From assembly GCA_004297775.1 (NCBI GenBank), contig SCUE01000007.1, positions 62,001-126,000 on the forward strand: a stretch of 64,000 nucleotides of DNA. Direction: 5' to 3'. This document shows positions 43,270 through 63,898 of this stretch, one piece after another. Source of the DNA: Chloroflexota bacterium. GTDB taxonomy: Bacteria > Chloroflexota > UBA6077 > FW602-bin22. The notes under the pieces are model-generated. The model was given only the letters and a program-made list of their open reading frames with translations. It was not told the DNA's origin and made no database searches. Numbering within the stretch: the stretch's first letter is position 1; each line of letters begins with the position of its first letter. The position numbers and the translations under genes were made by a program.

Positions 43270-44436
43270 ATGCCACTCGACCTGACGGCAATCGCCCGGC
43301 AAGCCCGCCGCGATGTGCCAACGGCCGCCGCGGAAGCCGCTGACCTATTCGCGCAGGTGTCATCGGCCGTCGGGGCGCTGAGAAATCTCGACACCGAGCG
43401 GTTGCGCGAGCGGCGGGCGACGCGCCACGATGTCCCCTGGCTCACCGCCGAGCCAACTGAGCCACCGTCGTTACGCAAGGCCGCGCCCGTGCCCCTAACC
43501 GAGTACGCGGTCGTCGCGACCGATGGTTCACACGTCGACCAGGACCACCACGATGCCCTGCCGCACTGGCTTATCAACCTCGGGCTGATCACCTTGCGCT
43601 ACGGCGACCAACCGAGCGCTCAACTCGCAACCCGTTCCGAACTCGGCATTGGGCGCGACGCACTGTACTATCGCCACGACGGGCGACGGCATCGCATCCA
43701 GGGTCAGGTGTTGAACGTCCGTCGCCAGGTCGCCGAAGCGGCGGCTCTGGCGGAACTGTGCGAGGCCTCGCCGGGGGCGGCCGGGTTGATCGATGGCACG
43801 CTGGTTCTCAGCTCGATCAGCCGGTCCACGCAGCCTGAACCAACGGCGTTCTTGACTGAGTATCTGGCGGCACTCGATCGCGTCGAGTCCAGCGGCGGAA
43901 TCATCGCCGCATACATTTCGCAGCCCTCCGGCAGCGACGTCGTCGCCAGTCTACGGATCGGGTGCTGCGATCGGTCGTCGTGCGACCCCATCTGTCGGCT
44001 GGGCGATCGGGCGACGCGTCCGTGCGGTCTTTTTCCGGACGTACTCGACCGCCACCTGTTCGCGGCCATGCTCGAGGCGGGCGAGCGATCGGCCATCTGG
44101 CGCAGCGGCTGGCCAACCTCCCAGCGCTATTACGGACGCCACGCGGTTCATTTCTTCTACTTCGACACCGGCGTCGAGGTGTGTCGCGTCGAGATTCCGG
44201 CGTGGGTCGCGCTCGATCCGACGCGCGTCGATCGGCTCCACGCCGTTCTGTGCGCACAATGCGATCGTGGCGACGACGGATATCCGCGGGCGCTGATCGA
44301 GGCACATCACCTCGCCGTCGTCACCGCCGGCGATCGACGCGCGCTCGACACCGTGATCGATAATGCCCTGACGGCGGGTGGCATCGCCACGCTCGCTTCG
44401 GCCAAGCAACGCGCGAAGCGATTGCGCGCCGTGTAG
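43270..44436 (+). CDS. nurA: NurA-like DNA end-processing nuclease
   Basis: 388 residues. The NurA fold is recognised by AVVATDGSHVDQD with Asp85, GLIDGTLVLSS (second acidic motif), and late blocks HFFYFDTGVEVCRVEIP and YPRALIEAHHLAVV. NurA is a 5'-to-3' nuclease that works with the HerA translocase in resecting DNA ends. herA is not adjacent. It has cysteines around 235-260 (CCDRSSCDPIC) that may bind a metal. The gene abuts the DUF2342 gene, so they are co-transcribed. Confidence 0.88.
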   Translation: MPLDLTAIARQARRDVPTAAAEAADLFAQVSSAVGALRNLDTERLRERRATRHDVPWLTAEPTEPPSLRKAAPVPLTEYAVVATDGSHVDQDHHDALPHWLINLGLITLRYGDQPSAQLATRSELGIGRDALYYRHDGRRHRIQGQVLNVRRQVAEAAALAELCEASPGAAGLIDGTLVLSSISRSTQPEPTAFLTEYLAALDRVESSGGIIAAYISQPSGSDVVASLRIGCCDRSSCDPICRLGDRATRPCGLFPDVLDRHLFAAMLEAGERSAIWRSGWPTSQRYYGRHAVHFFYFDTGVEVCRVEIPAWVALDPTRVDRLHAVLCAQCDRGDDGYPRALIEAHHLAVVTAGDRRALDTVIDNALTAGGIATLASAKQRAKRLRAV

Positions 44437-45084: not shown

Positions 45085-47103
45085 CTACGCCTTGGCTTCC
45101 GCGCGCGACTCGGTCAGTGTCCAGATCGCGCCTCCCAGGCTCGCCGCGAACAGCACGCCGTCCTTGGCGAAGTTCGGCGACAGCGCCAGCGACACGATAG
45201 CGCGATTCGTCAAATCGTCGTTCAACGCCGACCAGGTCAATCCGCCATTGCGCGACACATAGACGCCATCGCTAGTGCCAGCGTACAGCGTACCGTCCTT
45301 GACATACGTTGACGAGGCGACAAGGCTGACGACCGCCGTGTTCGGTCGCCCAACCCGCTCGGCGAACCAGAGCTGGCGACGGCCCGGACGCGGCGCGGCC
45401 ATTGGACCAGCCATCGGGCGCAGGACGGCGCCCTGCACGCCGACGAACACGGCGCGATCGCGGGCGTACGTCGGCGGCATCGTGATCGTGAGCCAGCGAC
45501 CGGGCGTGTGGTGCGAGGTGAGTGGCACCCAGGACTTCCCACCATCCTCGGAGCGCCAGATCACCACCTCCGCCTTACGATCGACCGCGCCCTCACGGAA
45601 TGTCCCGGCGTAGACCGTGCGGTCGGTCGCGTACTCGGGACTGCACGCGATTGCGACGATTTCGGTTCGATCGAAGCGCTCGGCGACCGTCTCCCAGGTA
45701 TCGCCGCGATCGCGCGACACAACCAGACTCGTTGTGTCGGGGCCCTCGGTCTGCCCACCCAGGACCGCGAAGACCATTCCATCTTCATCGAACGCCGGCG
45801 ACAGCGACACGGCACGCGCGCCTTCAGCCTCGTCCGCGCCCGATGCGAGACGCGACCAGGTCGCGCACGCGTCGACCGATCGAAACACACCGCGATTCGT
45901 CGCAACGAATGCGGTCTTGTCCTTCGCGTAATCGGGTGACAGGACCAACGACGTCACTTCTTGGTCGTCGAGGCCAGCGCCGCGCGAATCCCATGACTCC
46001 CCGCCATCGGACGAAACCGCGATCCCTTGATCGAGCGTGACCGTGAAGAGCGTCTTGTCCTTGCCGAAATCGGGCGACACCACCATCTGGACGAAGAGGC
46101 GCGCCGCGAGTCCTTCGCTCGACGGCAGCCAGGTTTCACCACCGTCCTCCGAGCGAACGACCCCGACGTTCGCGGTGCCCGCGAGGACCAGGCCGGCCGG
46201 ACCGCCCGCGAGCGCCAGCACGGCGTCGGACACTCCATCGGCGCGCTTCCACGACGCGCCACCGTTACGCGACACATACGGCCCGGCGTTCGTGCCAGCC
46301 ACGATCGTGCGATCGCGCGCGAAGTCTGGCGAGAGCGCAACCGCGTTCACGCAAACGTCATCCAGCCCCTTGTTCGACTGGCGAAACTTTCGGCCGCCAT
46401 CGGCCGACAGATAGATGCCCTCATCCTCGCTGCCCACGACGACAACACCGTCATCGGCGAAGGTGGGCGACAAGGCGACGCACTGAAGCGAGACGCCAGC
46501 CAGCTCCGGACCCGATTCGCGCCAGGCGCGACCCGCGTTCGGCGTTCGGTAGAAGCCATCGGTTGTGACGCAGAACGCGGTTTCGTCGCGATCGAATGTT
46601 GGTGAGAATGCCAGAGCCAGGACACCGAGTTCGAGGAGCCCGAAGTTGCTGGCGCTCCACGTTTTGCCGCCCGTCGTCGTACGAAACACACCGGCCGTCT
46701 CACTGCCGAGGAGCGCGGTCTGATCCGCGCCGAAACCGGGTGACACCGCGATCGCCTGCACGGACTCACGGCCGCCCCAGATCTCCGACGGGTGCCATTC
46801 GTCGCCGCCGTTGAACGTTTGAAACAAGCCGCCCGAGCGTGACCCGGCGAAGGCGATGCCGTCTTTGGCGTAGTTCGACGAGATCGCGACGCAGATCGCG
46901 AACGGGCTGGTGAAGCCCACGTTGGCCGGTCGCCACGTCTTACCACCGTCGAGCGAGCGATAGATCCCCGCCATCGTCGAGGCGAACACGGTCTTGTCTC
47001 CGGCGAACGCCGGTGAGAGCGCAAGCCCCGTCACCGTTCCGCCAGAATGGGAACCGCGTGGGCGCCACGCGCCAGTCAGAGGCTTGGTTGGTGTCGGGTT
47101 CAC
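45085..47103 (-). CDS. BNR/Asp-box repeat beta-propeller protein
   Basis: 672 residues built of about 12 tandem units of the pattern SPxFAxDxTxFAGTxxGVYRSxDGGxTW. Each has an Asp-box (SLDGGKTW, SADGGRKF, SEDGGETW, SRNGGLTW). Such repeats form one or two beta-propellers, as in Ycf48/sortilin-like proteins. No signal peptide is visible, so it may be cytoplasmic, which is unusual. Function unknown. GTG start with AAGGAG about 10 nt upstream. It lies between a chaperonin gene and a TetR gene on the same strand. Confidence 0.85.
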   Translation of the reverse strand: MNPTPTKPLTGAWRPRGSHSGGTVTGLALSPAFAGDKTVFASTMAGIYRSLDGGKTWRPANVGFTSPFAICVAISSNYAKDGIAFAGSRSGGLFQTFNGGDEWHPSEIWGGRESVQAIAVSPGFGADQTALLGSETAGVFRTTTGGKTWSASNFGLLELGVLALAFSPTFDRDETAFCVTTDGFYRTPNAGRAWRESGPELAGVSLQCVALSPTFADDGVVVVGSEDEGIYLSADGGRKFRQSNKGLDDVCVNAVALSPDFARDRTIVAGTNAGPYVSRNGGASWKRADGVSDAVLALAGGPAGLVLAGTANVGVVRSEDGGETWLPSSEGLAARLFVQMVVSPDFGKDKTLFTVTLDQGIAVSSDGGESWDSRGAGLDDQEVTSLVLSPDYAKDKTAFVATNRGVFRSVDACATWSRLASGADEAEGARAVSLSPAFDEDGMVFAVLGGQTEGPDTTSLVVSRDRGDTWETVAERFDRTEIVAIACSPEYATDRTVYAGTFREGAVDRKAEVVIWRSEDGGKSWVPLTSHHTPGRWLTITMPPTYARDRAVFVGVQGAVLRPMAGPMAAPRPGRRQLWFAERVGRPNTAVVSLVASSTYVKDGTLYAGTSDGVYVSRNGGLTWSALNDDLTNRAIVSLALSPNFAKDGVLFAASLGGAIWTLTESRAEAKA

Positions 47104-47149: not shown

Positions 47150-48796
47150 TTAGGGATTGACGCCGACGTCGTACATGGTGTGCTTGCGCAACACGAGCGT
47201 CTCGGTTGTCACAATCATCATCGCCCCCGAAACACCCGCCTCGACGGCCGCGCGGACGACCCGTGCCGGATCGTAGATGCCGGCCTCGATCATCGGGACA
47301 ACCTCACCGGTTCGCGCGTCGAATCCGTAGCCGGGACCGGCCTGCCGAACGCGCTCGACGATCGGCGCATCTTCCAGACCAGCATTCAGAATGATGCGAC
47401 GCATTGGCTCTTCGAGCGCCCGCGCTACAATCCGCAATCCGACCACTTCATCGCCAGTGGCCGGAATCGCGAGCACTTTCGGCACACACGCCAGAAGCGC
47501 GATACCTCCGCCGGGCACGATGCCGCCTTCGACTGCCGCGCGAACAGTCCGGACGCCGTCCTCCGCCCGGGCCTTGAGGAGCTTGAGGTCGGTCTCAGTC
47601 GCCGCGCCGACCGTGAGGATCGCGGCGCCTCCGCTCAACTTGCCGAGCCGCTCCCGCGCCTTGTCGTACTCGTAATCTTCCTTCTTCTCTTTGAACCACT
47701 TGATGTCCTTCTTGACCTCGACAAGCCGATCGCGTAGAGCTTGCGGATCGCCGGCGCCGCCGATGATCGAGAAGTAATCCTTGTTTGCCCAGATGCGCTG
47801 CGCGCGCCCGAGGTGGTTCAACTGGACATCTTGGATCATATCGCCGGCATCAAGGCTGATGACCTTGGCGCCGGTCAGAATCGCCAGATCTTCGAGAACC
47901 CGAAGGCGACGATCGCCGTGACCGGGCGCCTTGACCCCGATTGTCGTGATGCGTTTGTGGAGCGTGTTCGTGACAAGCAGCGCCAGAGCATCGCCCTCGA
48001 AGTCGTTCGCGACGACGAATAGGCTCTTCTCACCGGCTTCGATCAGCCGCTGCATCAACGGGATGAGCTGGCTGGCGTCTTTCAGCCAATGATCCGTGAT
48101 GAGCACGACCGGTGAATCGAGCATGGCTTCCATTCGCTCGCGGTCGGTCACCATGTACGGCGACACGTATCCCTTGTCCCAGGTAACGCCTTCGATGTAC
48201 CGCCGGTCGAGCGTTGCGCGCTGCGTCTCCTCGACGGTGATCGTGCCGTCCGCCCCGACGATGTCGAACATCTCGCCCAGGTAGCGGCCCATCTCTTCGT
48301 TGCCGGTTGCCGCGGCTGCGACGCGTGTGATCTCTTCCTGGGTGGACACGGGGACCTTCATCGCATCCAACTCGTCGAGAATGACGCGCAACGCCTTCTC
48401 AATGCCGTGGCGGATGATCATCGCGTTTCCGCCCGCCTCGATGTAGCGCAACGACTCGCGGATGATCGCATCGGCGAGGACGACCGCGGTCGTCGTTCCG
48501 TCGCCGACCTCGTCTTTCACGCGCCAGGCGAGCTGTCGCATGATCATTGCGCCCATGCTCTCGTACTTATCTTTCAGCTCAATGACGCGTCGTAGGATCG
48601 TGCCGCCGTCATCGAGGATCTCCGGACTGCGGTTGTCACCGGTGAGCGGCTGAATCGCCACGCTTCGGGCGATCGGACCCAGGGTCGGTCGAACGAGCTT
48701 GGCCGCCTTCTCGACGCCGCGCATCAACGCGCGTCGAGCGCTCGTGCTGAAGAGCAGGCGCTGGCCCGGCAGGGGAAAGTGATCGGCGAAACGCAT
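47150..48796 (-). CDS. groL: GroEL-type chaperonin (paralog without groES)
   Basis: 548 residues from ATG 48796; GTG 48802 is an alternative. Equatorial, intermediate and apical domains are all present. ATPase residues are conserved: the Asp in EILDDGGTI, GDGTTTAVVLA and the EDG of ARAEDGVRTVRA. The GGIVPGGG hinge and C-terminal segment are recognisable. The C-terminus lacks the GGM-rich tail (it ends MYDVGVNP) and the N-terminus has a roughly 20-residue extension. No groES is adjacent and no CIRCE operator is seen, so it is probably a divergent second chaperonin. Confidence 0.92.
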   Translation of the reverse strand: MRFADHFPLPGQRLLFSTSARRALMRGVEKAAKLVRPTLGPIARSVAIQPLTGDNRSPEILDDGGTILRRVIELKDKYESMGAMIMRQLAWRVKDEVGDGTTTAVVLADAIIRESLRYIEAGGNAMIIRHGIEKALRVILDELDAMKVPVSTQEEITRVAAAATGNEEMGRYLGEMFDIVGADGTITVEETQRATLDRRYIEGVTWDKGYVSPYMVTDRERMEAMLDSPVVLITDHWLKDASQLIPLMQRLIEAGEKSLFVVANDFEGDALALLVTNTLHKRITTIGVKAPGHGDRRLRVLEDLAILTGAKVISLDAGDMIQDVQLNHLGRAQRIWANKDYFSIIGGAGDPQALRDRLVEVKKDIKWFKEKKEDYEYDKARERLGKLSGGAAILTVGAATETDLKLLKARAEDGVRTVRAAVEGGIVPGGGIALLACVPKVLAIPATGDEVVGLRIVARALEEPMRRIILNAGLEDAPIVERVRQAGPGYGFDARTGEVVPMIEAGIYDPARVVRAAVEAGVSGAMMIVTTETLVLRKHTMYDVGVNP

Positions 48797-48836
48797 GCCC
48801 ACGGCTGTAGATCAGACTCCTCGAAGCTGGGCGGAG

Positions 48837-48942: not shown

Positions 48943-49047
48943 GGCGTCGCTCGATGCCGTCTGGATGTTCGGCGGGGAACTGTCGGGGGAATGTAATCCA
49001 GTCAGCGGGCAGCGTGCAGGCATGTCCATTTGGGAGGTTTTGGAACG

Positions 49048-50610
49048 ATGATCGATCCTCGCGCGAAATCCCTGGGACGCCGCGGCTTCCTGAAGTGGTC
49101 CGCATTGGCGGTCGGAGCGACCACCGTGCCAATCCTTCAGGCGTGCGGGGGCGCGGCCCCAACCGCCACGGCCGTGCCGAAGCCGGCCGAGGCGCCGAAG
49201 CCAGCCGCGCCAGCGCCCGCTGCCCCGGCACCGAAGCCACCGGAAGCGGCGAAGCCGGCCGCGGCCGCGCCGACCGCGACACCCGCTCCGTCGCAGACGG
49301 TCGTCCAGGCCGTCGCCGCGCTGCAGAAGCCGAAGTCGAACGCCAAGATCACAGGGAAACTGCAGATTCTGCAGAACCAGGACTTCCACCCGGATCACAA
49401 CGCGTTCGTCCGACTTCTCCTCGAAGAGTGGGGCAAGGCTCAGAACTGGCAGATGGATGTGTCGTACATCGCTGGGTTCCAGGGCGGCTCCGACCTGAAC
49501 CAGAAGTTGGTTGCGATGGTCCAGGCCGGCACGCCTCCCGACCTCATGGATCACAGCGTCAGCCACAAGCAGCAGACGTTCCTCGGCGTGATCGAGGACG
49601 TCACAGCACTGGTGAAAGAGAACGAAGCGGCGCATGGAAAGTCGGTCGTCGGCATTCAGCGCGCGGCCGAGTACGACGGCAAGTGGTGGGGCGTTCCCTA
49701 CTACACCCGCGCCGGTGGCTACTACATTCGCAACGACTGGTTCAAGGACGCCGGCGTAAGTCCTGATACCGAACTCAACACCTACAACAAGATGCGCGAT
49801 GTCGCCCTGAGGATCTCCGACCCGGACAAGAAGCGCTGGGGCTGGGGCATGACCGTCAACCGGTCCGGCGACGGCGAGTCGATCGTCAAGAACCTGATCT
49901 GGGCGCACGGCGGCCGCTTCCAGGATAAGACCGGCCAGTTGATCACTCTGAACACGGCCGAGACCGTTGCTGGGTACGAATGGCTGAAGGAGACCTACAT
50001 CGACCCGAAGTGGGCCAAGGCGCTGCCGCCGGGCGTCAACGCCTGGAACGACATCTCGAATAACGAGGCGTTCCTCGCCGGCACGCTCGGCATCACGCAG
50101 AACGCCGGTACGATGCTCGCCAAGGCGTACTTCGACAAGGTGCCGCACGCCGAGACGATCGGCTTCGTGCAGACGCCGTTCAGCCTGGACGGCAAGGGCC
50201 CGCGCTGCGAGAGCGGCGGCGGCGAGACTCTGCGCATCCTCAAGGGGACCAAGAACCGGGATGCCGCGAACGACACGATCAAGTTCTGGACCTCAACACC
50301 GGTGCAGCAGACGATCTGGAAGATCTCGACCTCGTACGCCCTTCCGGCGTACGACAAGGGTTGGGACGATCCGATCATCAAGGGCAACAAGATCTCGTCG
50401 ACGTTCAAGGCCGTTGTGAACAACGAGGACTGGTGGGGCGACGCCACGCCGGGACCGATCCAGGCCGCGATGGACGCGGTATCGGTATCGAACATGTTCA
50501 CCGACACGATGGGCGAGGTCATCAAGGGTAAGCCCGTCAAGCAAGCCGTCGAGGAAATGCACAAGCGCGCGGTCAAGATCTACAAGGAGTTCGGGCTCAA
50601 GGGCGAATAG
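49048..50610 (+). CDS. Tat-exported sugar-type ABC binding protein (SBP family 1)
   Basis: 520 residues from ATG 49048. The GGGAGG ribosome site is about 11 nt upstream, a little far. A twin-arginine signal (LGRRGFLKWSALAVGA) ends in a lipobox with Cys33 (PILQAC). A Pro/Ala/Lys linker (about 34-85) leads to the SBP-family-1 fold (QNQDFHPDHNAFVRLLLEEW, WWGVPYYTRAGGYYIRNDWF). The family takes carbohydrates or polyols. A strong hairpin and a fused permease follow. Confidence 0.93.
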   Translation: MIDPRAKSLGRRGFLKWSALAVGATTVPILQACGGAAPTATAVPKPAEAPKPAAPAPAAPAPKPPEAAKPAAAAPTATPAPSQTVVQAVAALQKPKSNAKITGKLQILQNQDFHPDHNAFVRLLLEEWGKAQNWQMDVSYIAGFQGGSDLNQKLVAMVQAGTPPDLMDHSVSHKQQTFLGVIEDVTALVKENEAAHGKSVVGIQRAAEYDGKWWGVPYYTRAGGYYIRNDWFKDAGVSPDTELNTYNKMRDVALRISDPDKKRWGWGMTVNRSGDGESIVKNLIWAHGGRFQDKTGQLITLNTAETVAGYEWLKETYIDPKWAKALPPGVNAWNDISNNEAFLAGTLGITQNAGTMLAKAYFDKVPHAETIGFVQTPFSLDGKGPRCESGGGETLRILKGTKNRDAANDTIKFWTSTPVQQTIWKISTSYALPAYDKGWDDPIIKGNKISSTFKAVVNNEDWWGDATPGPIQAAMDAVSVSNMFTDTMGEVIKGKPVKQAVEEMHKRAVKIYKEFGLKGE

Positions 50611-50637
50611 CCCGCGAACTGAATTTCTCGCCTAGGA

Positions 50638-50673
50638 CGAACCGCGGCCGATCGGGCGATCGGCCGCGGTTCG
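50638..50673 (+). promoter_or_regulatory. 16-bp perfect stem-loop after binding-protein gene
   Basis: CGAACCGCGGCCGATC pairs perfectly with GATCGGCCGCGGTTCG around a GGGC loop, 27 bases after the SBP stop and 45 bases before the permease start. A weak T-containing stretch (TGTTCATT) follows. It is likely an attenuating terminator or RNA-stability element. Confidence 0.75.
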
Positions 50674-50718
50674 TGTTCATTCGGACTCGTGGCCTGGACC
50701 GGGCGAAGAGGAGCAATC

Positions 50719-52662
50719 ATGACGATGAGTAGCGAGAGTCTGGTCGCGCGAAGTGCTCGGTCGAACAGCATCGGCCAACAACTCGAGCGAGTATTCGGCC
50801 GCGACTTTCGCGTGGCCTGGCTCTTCTTCCTGCCGACGGCACTTCTCCTCGGCGGCCTGATCGCCTATCCGGTATTCAACGCTGTCTACTTGAGCTTGCA
50901 CGTCGCGGTCGGTCCGACCGTCGGCCGATTTGTCGGTCTCGACAATTACATCGATCTCTGGGACGACCCGATGTTCCGTGAGTCAGTGTTCTTGACGGCA
51001 CGCTTCACGTTCTTCTCCGTGTTCTTCAAGTTCTGGCTGGGTCTCGCCGCGGCGGTGATGCTTCACCAACGGATCAAGTTCCGGAACGTGCTGACGGCAC
51101 TGGTTCTTTTGCCGTGGATCGTACCCGAGGTTGTCACGGCACTAGCGTGGCGCGGCATCTTCGACCCGGTCTTCGGTGGCCTGAACAACGCGCTTCTGAC
51201 GCTTGGGCTGGTCGATAAGGGTATTGCCTGGCTGGGCACACCAGAATTGGCACTCCCGGCCGTGACGGCCGTGAACGTGTGGAAGGGCATTCCCTTCTTT
51301 GCGGTCACGTTGCTGGCTGGCATGAAGTCGATTGATTCCGAGCAATATGACGCCGCGGCGGTCGATGGGGCGAGCGCGTGGCGCCGCTTCATTCACATCA
51401 CACTGCCAGGGCTTCGCTACGTCATCATCGTCTGCACGCTGCTCTCGACGATCTGGACGTTTAACAACTTCGGAATCATTTACCTGTTGACGGGCGGCGG
51501 TCCGGGTGGATCGACGCGCGTCTACACGATCCTCGCCTACGAAGCACTGGCGGGACTCCGCTACAGCTTCTCGGTGACCGTGGCTCTGGCGATGGCGCCG
51601 TTCCTCGGGGTGATCATCTTCGTCCTTGGTCGATACATGATGACAAACAATCAGCGGGTCGACGAAGGCGGTTTGGCTAGCACGATCGTGAGCGCCATCA
51701 CCTGGCCAGTCAGAATGGTCGGCACGGTTCTTGGATTCGTGTTTGGCGTCGTGAACAACGCGGTCGAGGATGTCCTCAGCGGTATGAGTCGCGTGCTCAG
51801 CCGCGGCCAACCCGGCGGAGCATTCAGCCAGCGCACCTCGAAGCGCGCCTCTCGCGCCGCGCTCTACGCCTGCCTTTCGGCGCTCGTCGCGTTCGAGCTG
51901 TTCCCGTTCTACTGGGTCATCATCACCGCTTTCAAGACCGGTGATCAAATTCGGACCTTCCGTTCGATCTTCTGGCCCGAGCCGTTTTCGCTCGACAATT
52001 TCGTGTATATGCTCCAGGAGCGACCGTTCATGCTCTGGATGCAAAACACGTTCAGCGTTGCGCTGGTGGCGACGTTCATCGCGATCCTCGCGTCGTCGCT
52101 TGGCGCCTATGCGATCGTTCGCATGCGGTGGCGCGGGCAGGGGCCAATCTCGACGATCATCCTGATCGCCTACCTCATTCCAGGCGTGCTTCTGATCGTG
52201 CCACTCTTCCAGATTCTCGTCTGGCTAAAGCTCGTCAACTCGCTCGGCGCGTTGATGATTACGTATCCGACGTTTACGCTGCCGTTCGCGACGTGGATGC
52301 TGATGGGGTACTACCGCGCGATCCCCGAGGAACTCGAGGAGGCCGCCCTGATCGACGGCTGTAATCGGTTCCAGGCCTTCTTCCGCATCATCCTGCCGCT
52401 GATCCGGCCTGCGCTCCTGGCCGTGGCGCTGTTCGCTGTCACGGGTGCGTTTAACGAGTTCTTGATGGCGTTCGTCTTCACGACCAGTGAGCAGTACATG
52501 ACCGTCGGCGTCGGTATGGCCAAGATGGTTATCGGAGATATCTTCCCGTTTGGGCCGATGTCGGCCGGCGCGATCATGATGGCCATACCCGTCATCATCC
52601 TGTACACATTCGCGCAGCGGGTTATGGTCGAGGGCCTGACCGCTGGTTCCGTCAAGGGCTAG
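50719..52662 (+). CDS. Fused MalF-MalG-type ABC permease
   Basis: 647 residues from ATG 50719 (GAGGAG 6 nt upstream). It contains two complete MalF/MalG-type permease halves in one chain. The first (about 20-305) has EAA-type loop YDAAAVDGASAWRRFIHITL. The second (about 375-645) has EEAALIDGCNRFQAFFRIIL. They are joined by a roughly 65-residue linker with an extra hydrophobic stretch (about 335-365). Normally these are separate proteins, as in the third importer of this window. No ATPase gene is adjacent, so a shared MsmK-type ATPase is implied. A terminator hairpin follows. Confidence 0.93.
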   Translation: MTMSSESLVARSARSNSIGQQLERVFGRDFRVAWLFFLPTALLLGGLIAYPVFNAVYLSLHVAVGPTVGRFVGLDNYIDLWDDPMFRESVFLTARFTFFSVFFKFWLGLAAAVMLHQRIKFRNVLTALVLLPWIVPEVVTALAWRGIFDPVFGGLNNALLTLGLVDKGIAWLGTPELALPAVTAVNVWKGIPFFAVTLLAGMKSIDSEQYDAAAVDGASAWRRFIHITLPGLRYVIIVCTLLSTIWTFNNFGIIYLLTGGGPGGSTRVYTILAYEALAGLRYSFSVTVALAMAPFLGVIIFVLGRYMMTNNQRVDEGGLASTIVSAITWPVRMVGTVLGFVFGVVNNAVEDVLSGMSRVLSRGQPGGAFSQRTSKRASRAALYACLSALVAFELFPFYWVIITAFKTGDQIRTFRSIFWPEPFSLDNFVYMLQERPFMLWMQNTFSVALVATFIAILASSLGAYAIVRMRWRGQGPISTIILIAYLIPGVLLIVPLFQILVWLKLVNSLGALMITYPTFTLPFATWMLMGYYRAIPEELEEAALIDGCNRFQAFFRIILPLIRPALLAVALFAVTGAFNEFLMAFVFTTSEQYMTVGVGMAKMVIGDIFPFGPMSAGAIMMAIPVIILYTFAQRVMVEGLTAGSVKG

Positions 52663-61993: not shown

Positions 61994-62011
61994 CTTAGCT
62001 AGCTAGCCACC

Positions 62012-62039
62012 GGTTCGGCACCCGGTCGGGCGCCGAACC
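62012..62039 (+). promoter_or_regulatory. Stem-loop between binding-protein and permease genes
   Basis: GGTTCGGC and GCCGAACC form the outer stem, with CCCG-GT-CGGG nested inside and one A-C mismatch between them. It lies 18 bases after the SBP stop. It is a likely attenuator. Confidence 0.7.
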
Positions 62040-62067
62040 ACTTCAAACCCCAGGAGGAAGGCAGACG

Positions 62068-63009
62068 ATGGCAGAGGCCACGAGGGTTGTCGCTCGCACC
62101 GACCTGCTCTACCGGCTTGGCCTGCGCCGCCTGGCGGCTCGCGAGGCTGCTCTCGGCTACACGATCGTCGGCGTCGTCTACCTCTTCTTCGCCGCCTTCA
62201 TCTTCGGCCCGCTGCTGCTCGCCGTCTACATCTCGACGACCAAATGGGATGCGCTCAGCCCGCTCTCCGAGGCGCGATTCATCGGGCTGGATAATTACAT
62301 CGATCTCTTCTCCGACGATCGCTTCCGCTTGTCGATGATTCATGACTTCGAGTTCGCGGTCAAGGCGTACTTCGGTCAGATCGGTCTGGGTCTCGGCTTG
62401 GCGCTCATTATCAGCAACATCCGCCGGTTCCAAGCGCTGGCAAGGTTCATCAGCTTCGCGCCATTCGTGTTACCCCTTGTCGCCACCGCGATCGTCTTCT
62501 TCATCCTGATGAATCCGGTGTGGGGCAGCTTCAACGCCGGGCTCAGGCTTGCCGGACTGCCGCCCAGTCAGTGGCTATCGTCGCCCGAGAGCGCGATGAA
62601 CTCGACCGCGCTGATGATCATTTGGAAGTACGCCGGTTACTACATGGTGCTCTTCCTGACCGCGCTGATGAGCGTGCCGCAGGAGTACTACGACGCGGCC
62701 CATATTGACGGCGCCGGTCCGCTGCAGTCCTTCCGCTACATCACATGGCCACTCATCCGGCCGGCGTTCCTATTCATCTCGATCATCAACGTGATCGGGA
62801 ACCTGCAGGTCTTCACCCCCATCTTCATCATGACCGGCGGCGGCCCGAACCGGGCTACTGAGGTCGTCGTGCTCCTGATGTACAACACCGCGTTCAACAA
62901 CTTCCGTTACTCACTCGCCAACGCGATGGCCGTGATTCTCTTCCTCGTCATCCTGGCGCTGACCGTGCTCCAGATGAAGGTCCTCAGAAAAGGCGGAATG
63001 GAAACGTAG
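62068..63009 (+). CDS. Sugar ABC importer permease (MalF/UgpA family)
   Basis: 313 residues; GGAGGAAGG is a strong ribosome site upstream. Six membrane helices and the EAA loop (YDAAHIDGAGPLQSFRYITW) fit the MalF-type half. It forms the channel with the next gene. No extra periplasmic domain is present. Confidence 0.93.
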   Translation: MAEATRVVARTDLLYRLGLRRLAAREAALGYTIVGVVYLFFAAFIFGPLLLAVYISTTKWDALSPLSEARFIGLDNYIDLFSDDRFRLSMIHDFEFAVKAYFGQIGLGLGLALIISNIRRFQALARFISFAPFVLPLVATAIVFFILMNPVWGSFNAGLRLAGLPPSQWLSSPESAMNSTALMIIWKYAGYYMVLFLTALMSVPQEYYDAAHIDGAGPLQSFRYITWPLIRPAFLFISIINVIGNLQVFTPIFIMTGGGPNRATEVVVLLMYNTAFNNFRYSLANAMAVILFLVILALTVLQMKVLRKGGMET

Positions 63010-63019
63010 GAGCCGGTTG

Positions 63020-63898
63020 ATGGCTGATACTGAAGCGCTTCCAGTTGGCCGGGTCCACACCCGAAGGCCGCGGCTCAACCGGGTTGTTGGCGAAATCCTC
63101 TCCTGGGTCTTCCTGGTGGTTTCGGCCGTCATCATGCTTGCGCCGCTCCTCTGGATGGTTGTCGGCGGATTCAAGGAGCAGTGGGAGATCATGGCGGCCA
63201 CCCCGGCGGTGTGGCTGCCCAACAATTGGCGTTACGACAATTACCTGTATGTCATCGAGCGCAGTCCGCTGGTTGTCGGTTACCTGAACAGCTCGATCAT
63301 CGTTCCCATCGTCACTGTCATTCAGGTATGCACCAGTGTCGTCGCCGGGTATGCCTTCGCCAAACTTCGCTTCCCGGGGCGCGATCTGCTATTTGTTGGC
63401 GTGCTCTCAACGCTCATGCTCCCCGGGTTCCTGATCCAGATCCCGCTGTTCGTCCTCGTCGTTCAGCTCGGCTGGTTGAACACCTACCAGGCGATGATCG
63501 TCCCGTTCATCTTCTCCGCCTTCGGCATCTTCCTGATGCGCCAGTTCATGCTCGGAGTACCGACCGAGTACATTGACTCGGCCCGCATCGACGGGTCGAG
63601 CGAGATCGGTATCATCTGGCGGATCGTCTTCCCGCTGACAAAGGAAGCGTCCGCCGCTTTGGCTATCTTCGTGTTCATCTTCCACTGGAACGAACTGTTC
63701 TGGCCTCTGCTGGTCTTGCGTCAGCGGCCGATGTTCACGCTCCCGCTGTCGCTCTTCGCGCTCCAGGGCGACTACGGCGACTATTACCACCACGTGCTTG
63801 CCGGCGCCACCCTCGCCGTCATCCCTGTCGTGATCGTCTACCTCGTTCTGCAGGAGCACATCATCAAAGGCGTGACGCTGACCGGTCTGAAGGGCTAG
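63020..63898 (+). CDS. Sugar ABC importer permease (MalG/UgpE family)
   Basis: 292 residues from ATG 63020; AGGAG 7 nt upstream favours it over TTG 63017. Six helices and the EAA loop (YIDSARIDGSSEIGIIWRIV). The family C-terminal end is complete (HIIKGVTLTGLKG). It lies 10 bp after the first permease gene. No ATPase gene follows within the window. Confidence 0.93.
   Translation: MADTEALPVGRVHTRRPRLNRVVGEILSWVFLVVSAVIMLAPLLWMVVGGFKEQWEIMAATPAVWLPNNWRYDNYLYVIERSPLVVGYLNSSIIVPIVTVIQVCTSVVAGYAFAKLRFPGRDLLFVGVLSTLMLPGFLIQIPLFVLVVQLGWLNTYQAMIVPFIFSAFGIFLMRQFMLGVPTEYIDSARIDGSSEIGIIWRIVFPLTKEASAALAIFVFIFHWNELFWPLLVLRQRPMFTLPLSLFALQGDYGDYYHHVLAGATLAVIPVVIVYLVLQEHIIKGVTLTGLKG

Follow-up and report, generated by a model that had tools for sequence, protein, structure and literature searches.

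Carbohydrate-type (CUT1) importers belong to the best-studied class of ABC importers, and their permeases, as in MalFGK2 (2r6g) and LpqY-SugABC (7cad, 8ja7), consist of two chains encoded by two genes, with six helices per half, EAA loops and a family 1 binding protein. A published survey lists 35 CUT1 membrane proteins, of which each system has two and each protein 6, 7 or 8 segments; it gives FutB 12 segments and an internal repeat and classes it as a ferric porter (PMC3654945). Both halves likewise lie in one chain in FbpB (9j4r), where the substrate is iron. The FbpB/FutB group is not known to have a long linker helix. In the unrelated TRAP transporters, the two membrane subunits may be separate or fused, depending on the system, and those of HiSiaQM are joined by a genuine extra membrane helix (PMC9352664). 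No description of a fused CUT1 permease was found in the literature searched, which left out most subscription journals, and automated annotation may well already label these proteins as permease subunits. The locus presented here repeats, in a sugar-importer family, the design already known from iron importers: it very probably encodes a covalent MalF-MalG pair of CUT1 type that was joined once through a linker and would be fed by a lipoprotein and driven by a shared MalK-type ATPase.

The window, i.e., the whole stretch of 64,000 nucleotides analysed, corresponds to positions 62001-126000 of contig C19 of a Chloroflexota genome. On its forward strand, the gene for the fused MalF-MalG-type permease (50719..52662) runs without a stop through 647 codons, from the ATG at 50719 to the TAG at 52662, as established by translation. 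The ATG lies 108 bases past the stop of a binding-protein gene, and inspection of the sequence revealed a Shine-Dalgarno-like AGAGGAG ending 5 nt upstream of it. Two stretches of the 647-aa chain match BPD_transp_1 in Pfam. The MalF/SugA-like half 1 (residues 1-308; 50719..51642) and the MalG/SugB-like half 2 (residues 384-647; 51868..52659) are each predicted to contain six membrane helices, and all these segments are read on the forward strand. An EAA loop is recognizable by sequence in half 1 at residues 210-232 (51346..51414, +; conserved A212, D216, G217 and P230), where it is expected to form a putative ATPase docking site, and in half 2 at residues 540-562 (52336..52404, +; conserved E540, A543, D546, G547 and P560). 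The linker between the halves (residues 309-383; 51643..51867, +) contains a helix predicted by AlphaFold at residues 319-361 (51673..51801, +). An earlier note on this DNA had proposed MalF and MalG halves, each with an EAA loop, in one 647-residue chain, and translation, Pfam and the sequence bear this out; its linker of 65 residues becomes one of about 65-75, according to how the helix ends are set in the model. The same note held that the fusion fixes the heterodimer and its stoichiometry, and a fixed 1:1 ratio of MalF to MalG is indeed supported, because one frame encodes both. It had also rightly placed separate MalF and MalG genes in another importer of the window, where their frames overlap (61999-63006 and 62978-63895; L145).

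The best NCBIfam matches are MalG for residues 369-647 (136.9 bits) and MalF for residues 68-263 (124.8 bits); these scores, well below the equivalog cut-offs, place the halves in the MalF/MalG family but not among the true MalF or MalG proteins. The nearest solved structures by sequence are SugB for half 2 (1e-35) and SugA for half 1 (3e-29). The permease halves are thus of the MalF/MalG family and adjoin a family 1 sugar-type binding lipoprotein, as in CUT1, with one chain of two halves in place of two separate proteins of 6-8 helices. Since CUT1 systems have two membrane proteins each, the fused permease counts as a CUT1 variant and not as a standard member. With the single-chain ferric permeases FbpB and FutB it shares the joining of two type I permease halves into a single polypeptide, but neither sequence kinship to FbpB nor an iron-type binding protein, the partner being of sugar type. 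The AlphaFold2 model built with 26 fused sequences (mean pLDDT 77.6, pTM 0.79) has six membrane helices, the helix 319-361 and six further membrane helices, the membrane-span status being our own assignment. Of known structures, FbpB of Thermus thermophilus (9j4r, chain A) matches it best (Z 29.1, 473/490 residues, rmsd 3.4) and is also the top match in Foldseek; SugA, SugB, MalF and MalG match the model with one half each. At E 0.001, the sequence matches include SugA/B and MalF/G, and 9j4r is not among them. Carbohydrate-type and ferric permeases could sensibly be read as having fused their halves separately. The shared fold partly predicts an FbpB-like arrangement for a 12-helix chain.

The fusion recurs in related genomes, where the earlier note had suggested looking for it. 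Among 29 genomes of the class, the source genome included, 12 contain 16 matching loci at E <= 1e-100 without an internal stop. Of 400 genomes sampled from the phylum, 22 gave a match at E <= 1e-80; 21 of these have both halves in one frame, and the match in the remaining one (G272) is interrupted by a contig end. A scan of 84,980 named genomes with two peptide patterns, which missed at least the type with a 145-residue linker, found 350 relatives, from which 80 loci were kept. A long-linker fusion is present in 27 of the 80 (L051-L075, L077 and L078), the others being split or partial, and the 27 records are titled Chloroflexi/Chloroflexota, Thermomicrobiales, Caldilineaceae, Litorilinea, Anaerolineae and, once, 'bacterium'. 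The bearers of the fusion are a group of uncultured Chloroflexota bacteria, represented in part by metagenome assemblies. Many loci are common to both collections, and 53 sequences were reduced to 37 after the removal of identical copies. In a tree of the aligned halves without the linker (71 rows, quick method, long branches flagged), the 37 non-redundant fusions form one clade with SH-aLRT 100 and need one change; outside it fall nine Rokubacteria split pairs and the split pairs of the source genome itself. The tree left out L112, which is split with a short second half, and loci with split pairs absent from the pair list. Two other single-frame fusions, L143:1363-3285 (G022) and L144:1486-3525 (G025), take other positions on long branches, and the first EAA loop of L143 is degenerate by eye; they may be independent fusions or artefacts and were excluded from the 37. 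On this tree, the fusion arose once, in a Chloroflexota ancestor, and it is conserved. Of 2687 plasmid records that match, none reaches at least 60% identity; among the matches listed, 18 of 25 are annotated as two genes, and the rest carry a single annotated gene or lack annotation. PADLOC gave no match.

An assembly or sequencing artefact, in which the stop between two ordinary genes was lost, would be easy in principle, as just one stop codon keeps the in-frame MalF and MalG genes apart in a split pair of the source genome (L033/L034, G000:C16:32285-34027). The earlier note had named an indel that removes such a stop, with relatives encoding two genes, as the finding that would speak against a genuine fusion; the close relatives are fused and the split ones lie outside the clade. 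Inspection of 17 split relatives showed that their MalF stops 9-17 residues past the equivalent of residue 303 of the fused protein (P0001), and by eye none of them has a segment resembling the linker helix ahead of the first helix of MalG, so that roughly 50 residues of the linker are new. Compared with the nearest relative, dN/dS is 0.39 in the linker versus 0.17 and 0.11 in the halves, which shows that the linker evolves as coding sequence, constrained yet looser than the halves. In the face of 37 stop-free fusions in one clade, a linker that split pairs do not have and its dN/dS, we reject the artefact, whose probability we regard as negligible. The linker is also the most variable region, with a mean column identity of 0.33 versus 0.66 and 0.69 in the halves, which would suit a product that works as two chains after cleavage or through an internal start at the linker end. 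This reading is very improbable against a linker length of 64-85 residues in 34 of the 37 fusions (the other three have 107, 145 and 145) and the retention of W329 in 76%, P330 in 68% and E350 in 73% of them, the best-kept linker residues.

Confidence in the AlphaFold model is lowest in the linker (block pLDDT 48-73), with 54-73 in the helix 319-361 and less than 50 in the flanking stretches. The extra hydrophobic stretch mentioned in the earlier note is present, though weak: its best 19-residue Kyte-Doolittle mean is 1.65, and it carries a proline and charged residues. On the summed 2005 biological scale, it scores 4.6 versus 4.5 and 5.8 for the weakest real helices of the protein; as it scores no worse than these, hydropathy alone cannot decide the topology. 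Hydrophobic clustering exceeds that of shuffles at p<0.05 in 15 of 37 linkers and at p<0.01 in none, and the amphipathic moment does so at p<0.05 in just 5 of 37, for which reason an amphipathic helix is not claimed. The earlier note held that two six-helix halves in one orientation need such a crossing in the linker or an even count of helices; the argument for a crossing is contradicted by the model with six helices per half: six is an even number, so the end of half 1 and the start of half 2 are both cytoplasmic and no crossing is needed. A single crossing would invert half 2 and leave its EAA loop facing away from the cytoplasm, hence the stretch should lie at the membrane surface, be re-entrant or cross an even number of times. 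A thirteenth membrane helix, with an odd number of crossings, could draw on the Kyte-Doolittle value, on the closeness of the biological-scale score to those of the weakest real helices and on the extra helix that joins the fused domains of HiSiaQM (PMC9352664). We consider it very improbable: the charges and the EAA loop of half 2, which would flip, demand the orientation of half 1, the stretch contains the proline and charges, and the model shows one 43-residue helix with moderate confidence. The charges agree with cytoplasmic linker ends, the K+R/D+E counts being 5/0 at the C-terminal end of the linker (residues 362-380) and 3/0 in each of the short cytoplasmic loops 116-123 and 467-478. 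We favour a linker helix that would sit on the cytoplasmic surface of the membrane and strap the halves together.

For the 107-residue linker of L058, AlphaFold predicts two helices, 314-343 and 350-386, with a block pLDDT of about 40-55 at the turn. The two 145-residue linkers come from one genus and two genomes (L138 in G303 and L139 in G324, on the minus strand), in open frames of 775 and 750 aa (L146:5430-7679). By eye they contain about four hydrophobic stretches, of which three and two, respectively, are above the cut-off, and Pfam found BPD_transp_1 only and nothing for the linker in a protein of this type. The tree places them closest to L136, whose linker of 78 residues is of the ordinary kind. 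The linkers of 107 and 145 residues look like extra membrane helices; several ordinary linkers score one segment, an odd number, at the same cut-off, so the idea of an even number fits and is unproved. We tentatively hypothesize that the linker is an evolving membrane element that keeps an even number of crossings, from an in-plane helix through the hairpin of L058 to at most four segments in L138 and L139, and that the fusion in addition insulates the importer from mispairing in genomes where dozens of similar split permeases share a few ATPases; this is a doubtful proposal. Such a graded series of linkers would make it possible to test how membrane proteins gain helices without flipping the second half.

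In the source genome, a second fused permease, 48% identical to the first, lies about 2 kb past the window end (G000:C19:127980-129926; L031, L145:5881-7926). It has its own binding-protein gene, whose product is 36% identical to the first binding protein and matches no Pfam model at 0.001. The nearest relative genome (L075) contains tandem cassettes in the order binding protein, fusion, binding protein, fusion. The other 58 half-matches in the source genome, counted manually by row, comprise 30 on the MalF side and 28 on the MalG side, i.e., about 28 split pairs. Open frames of about 605 aa were considered as further fusions; the one on C16 was rejected, as a stop separates the genes and the length is due to read-through. 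At G000:C5:78316-79185, a MalF-type match falls into two pieces within one read-through frame and is possibly decayed or frameshifted. MalK-type OB domains occur only three times in the genome, each on a contig other than C19, and no ATPase gene was found adjoining the fusion in the window. With all three OB-domain ATPases encoded elsewhere, the fused permease probably relies on a borrowed ATPase, as do most of the related split pairs. Importers without an ATPase gene of their own use a common one in Bacillus subtilis, where the sharing of MsmX among importers is documented (PMC7658222). In a first look at the class genomes, permease candidates had a median of 71.5 in those with the fusion (n=12) versus 12 in those without (n=17; Mann-Whitney p 0.002), a weak link, because more transporters also mean more chances of fusion.

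These observations can be combined into a mechanism. Two CUT1 permease subunits would have been joined once in a Chloroflexota ancestor through a linker of about 50 extra residues, and the chain would fold as a ready-made MalF-MalG pair in which a cytoplasmic linker, containing one long helix, connects two sets of six helices. With both linker ends in the cytoplasm, the two EAA loops would meet a dimeric MalK-type ATPase that is shared and comes from another locus; substrate would be delivered by the lipoprotein whose gene lies immediately upstream. The benefit of the fusion may be that it prevents mispairing in a genome with about 28 split pairs of similar sequence. As a natural covalent MalF-MalG pair, the chain would offer a test of whether the halves of a permease must move apart freely. 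If insulation holds true, it would bear on the question of how mispairing is avoided where dozens of sugar importers are served by few ATPases. Apart from these points and the linker series, this is an ordinary gene fusion.

The substrate-binding lipoprotein gene (49030..50610, +) matches SBP_bac_1 (PF01547, E 2.3e-23), and its product is the predicted partner of the fused permease. A homologue was matched in 43 of 51 rows of the fused clade, duplicate loci counted, and in 6 of the 8 rows without a match the start of the fusion is at or near a contig end. Between the two genes, a perfect 17-bp inverted repeat with a 4-nt loop occupies 50637..50674. The fold of the 111-nt spacer has -54.1 kcal/mol and a z of -3.63, equalled by none of 200 shuffles; no T-run terminator was reported at the hairpin. 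The spacers of relatives, folded with simple shuffles and guessed start codons, have a z of -2 or below in many rows and near zero or positive in others. Between malE and malF of E. coli lies a REP, and the binding protein is made in excess; by analogy, the hairpin could hold the permease at a lower level than the binding protein.

As to the substrate, sugar acids are a lead with about even chances. A glucarate dehydratase-like gene stands beside the fusion in 7 of 27 loci and an RraA-like gene in 7 of 27 (clusters at 100 bits); the family names of such neighbours were tested on 10 genes from L070, L052, L072 and L065, and the dehydratase matches among these were below the equivalog cut-offs. 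About 3.5 kb past the second fusion, the source genome encodes a protein with SBD_N and NBD_C domains, as in four-carbon acid sugar kinases. Another substrate, such as an oligosaccharide or a polyol, beside which the dehydratase genes would stand by coincidence, has a probability only just short of even. The solved relatives of the binding protein, such as CbpB/CpbB, MalE3, GacH and others, are named as sugar or maltose-type, and no sugar-acid genes were found in the flanks of the window copy or at many of the relatives' loci. Against such a substrate, the fusion is accompanied at several separate loci by RraA-like genes and by dehydratase-like genes of the enolase superfamily.

The neighbours of the fusion in the window are a chaperonin gene, tRNA genes and a peptidase gene. 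The chaperonin gene (47150-48802, -), which adjoins the importer, encodes a Cpn60 with 186 bits in Pfam, lowish for its length, and could be a divergent extra copy. Farther away, the window encodes a 672-aa protein of the propeller type with BNR/Vps10-like repeats (45085-47103, -) and a NurA-domain nuclease (43270-44433).
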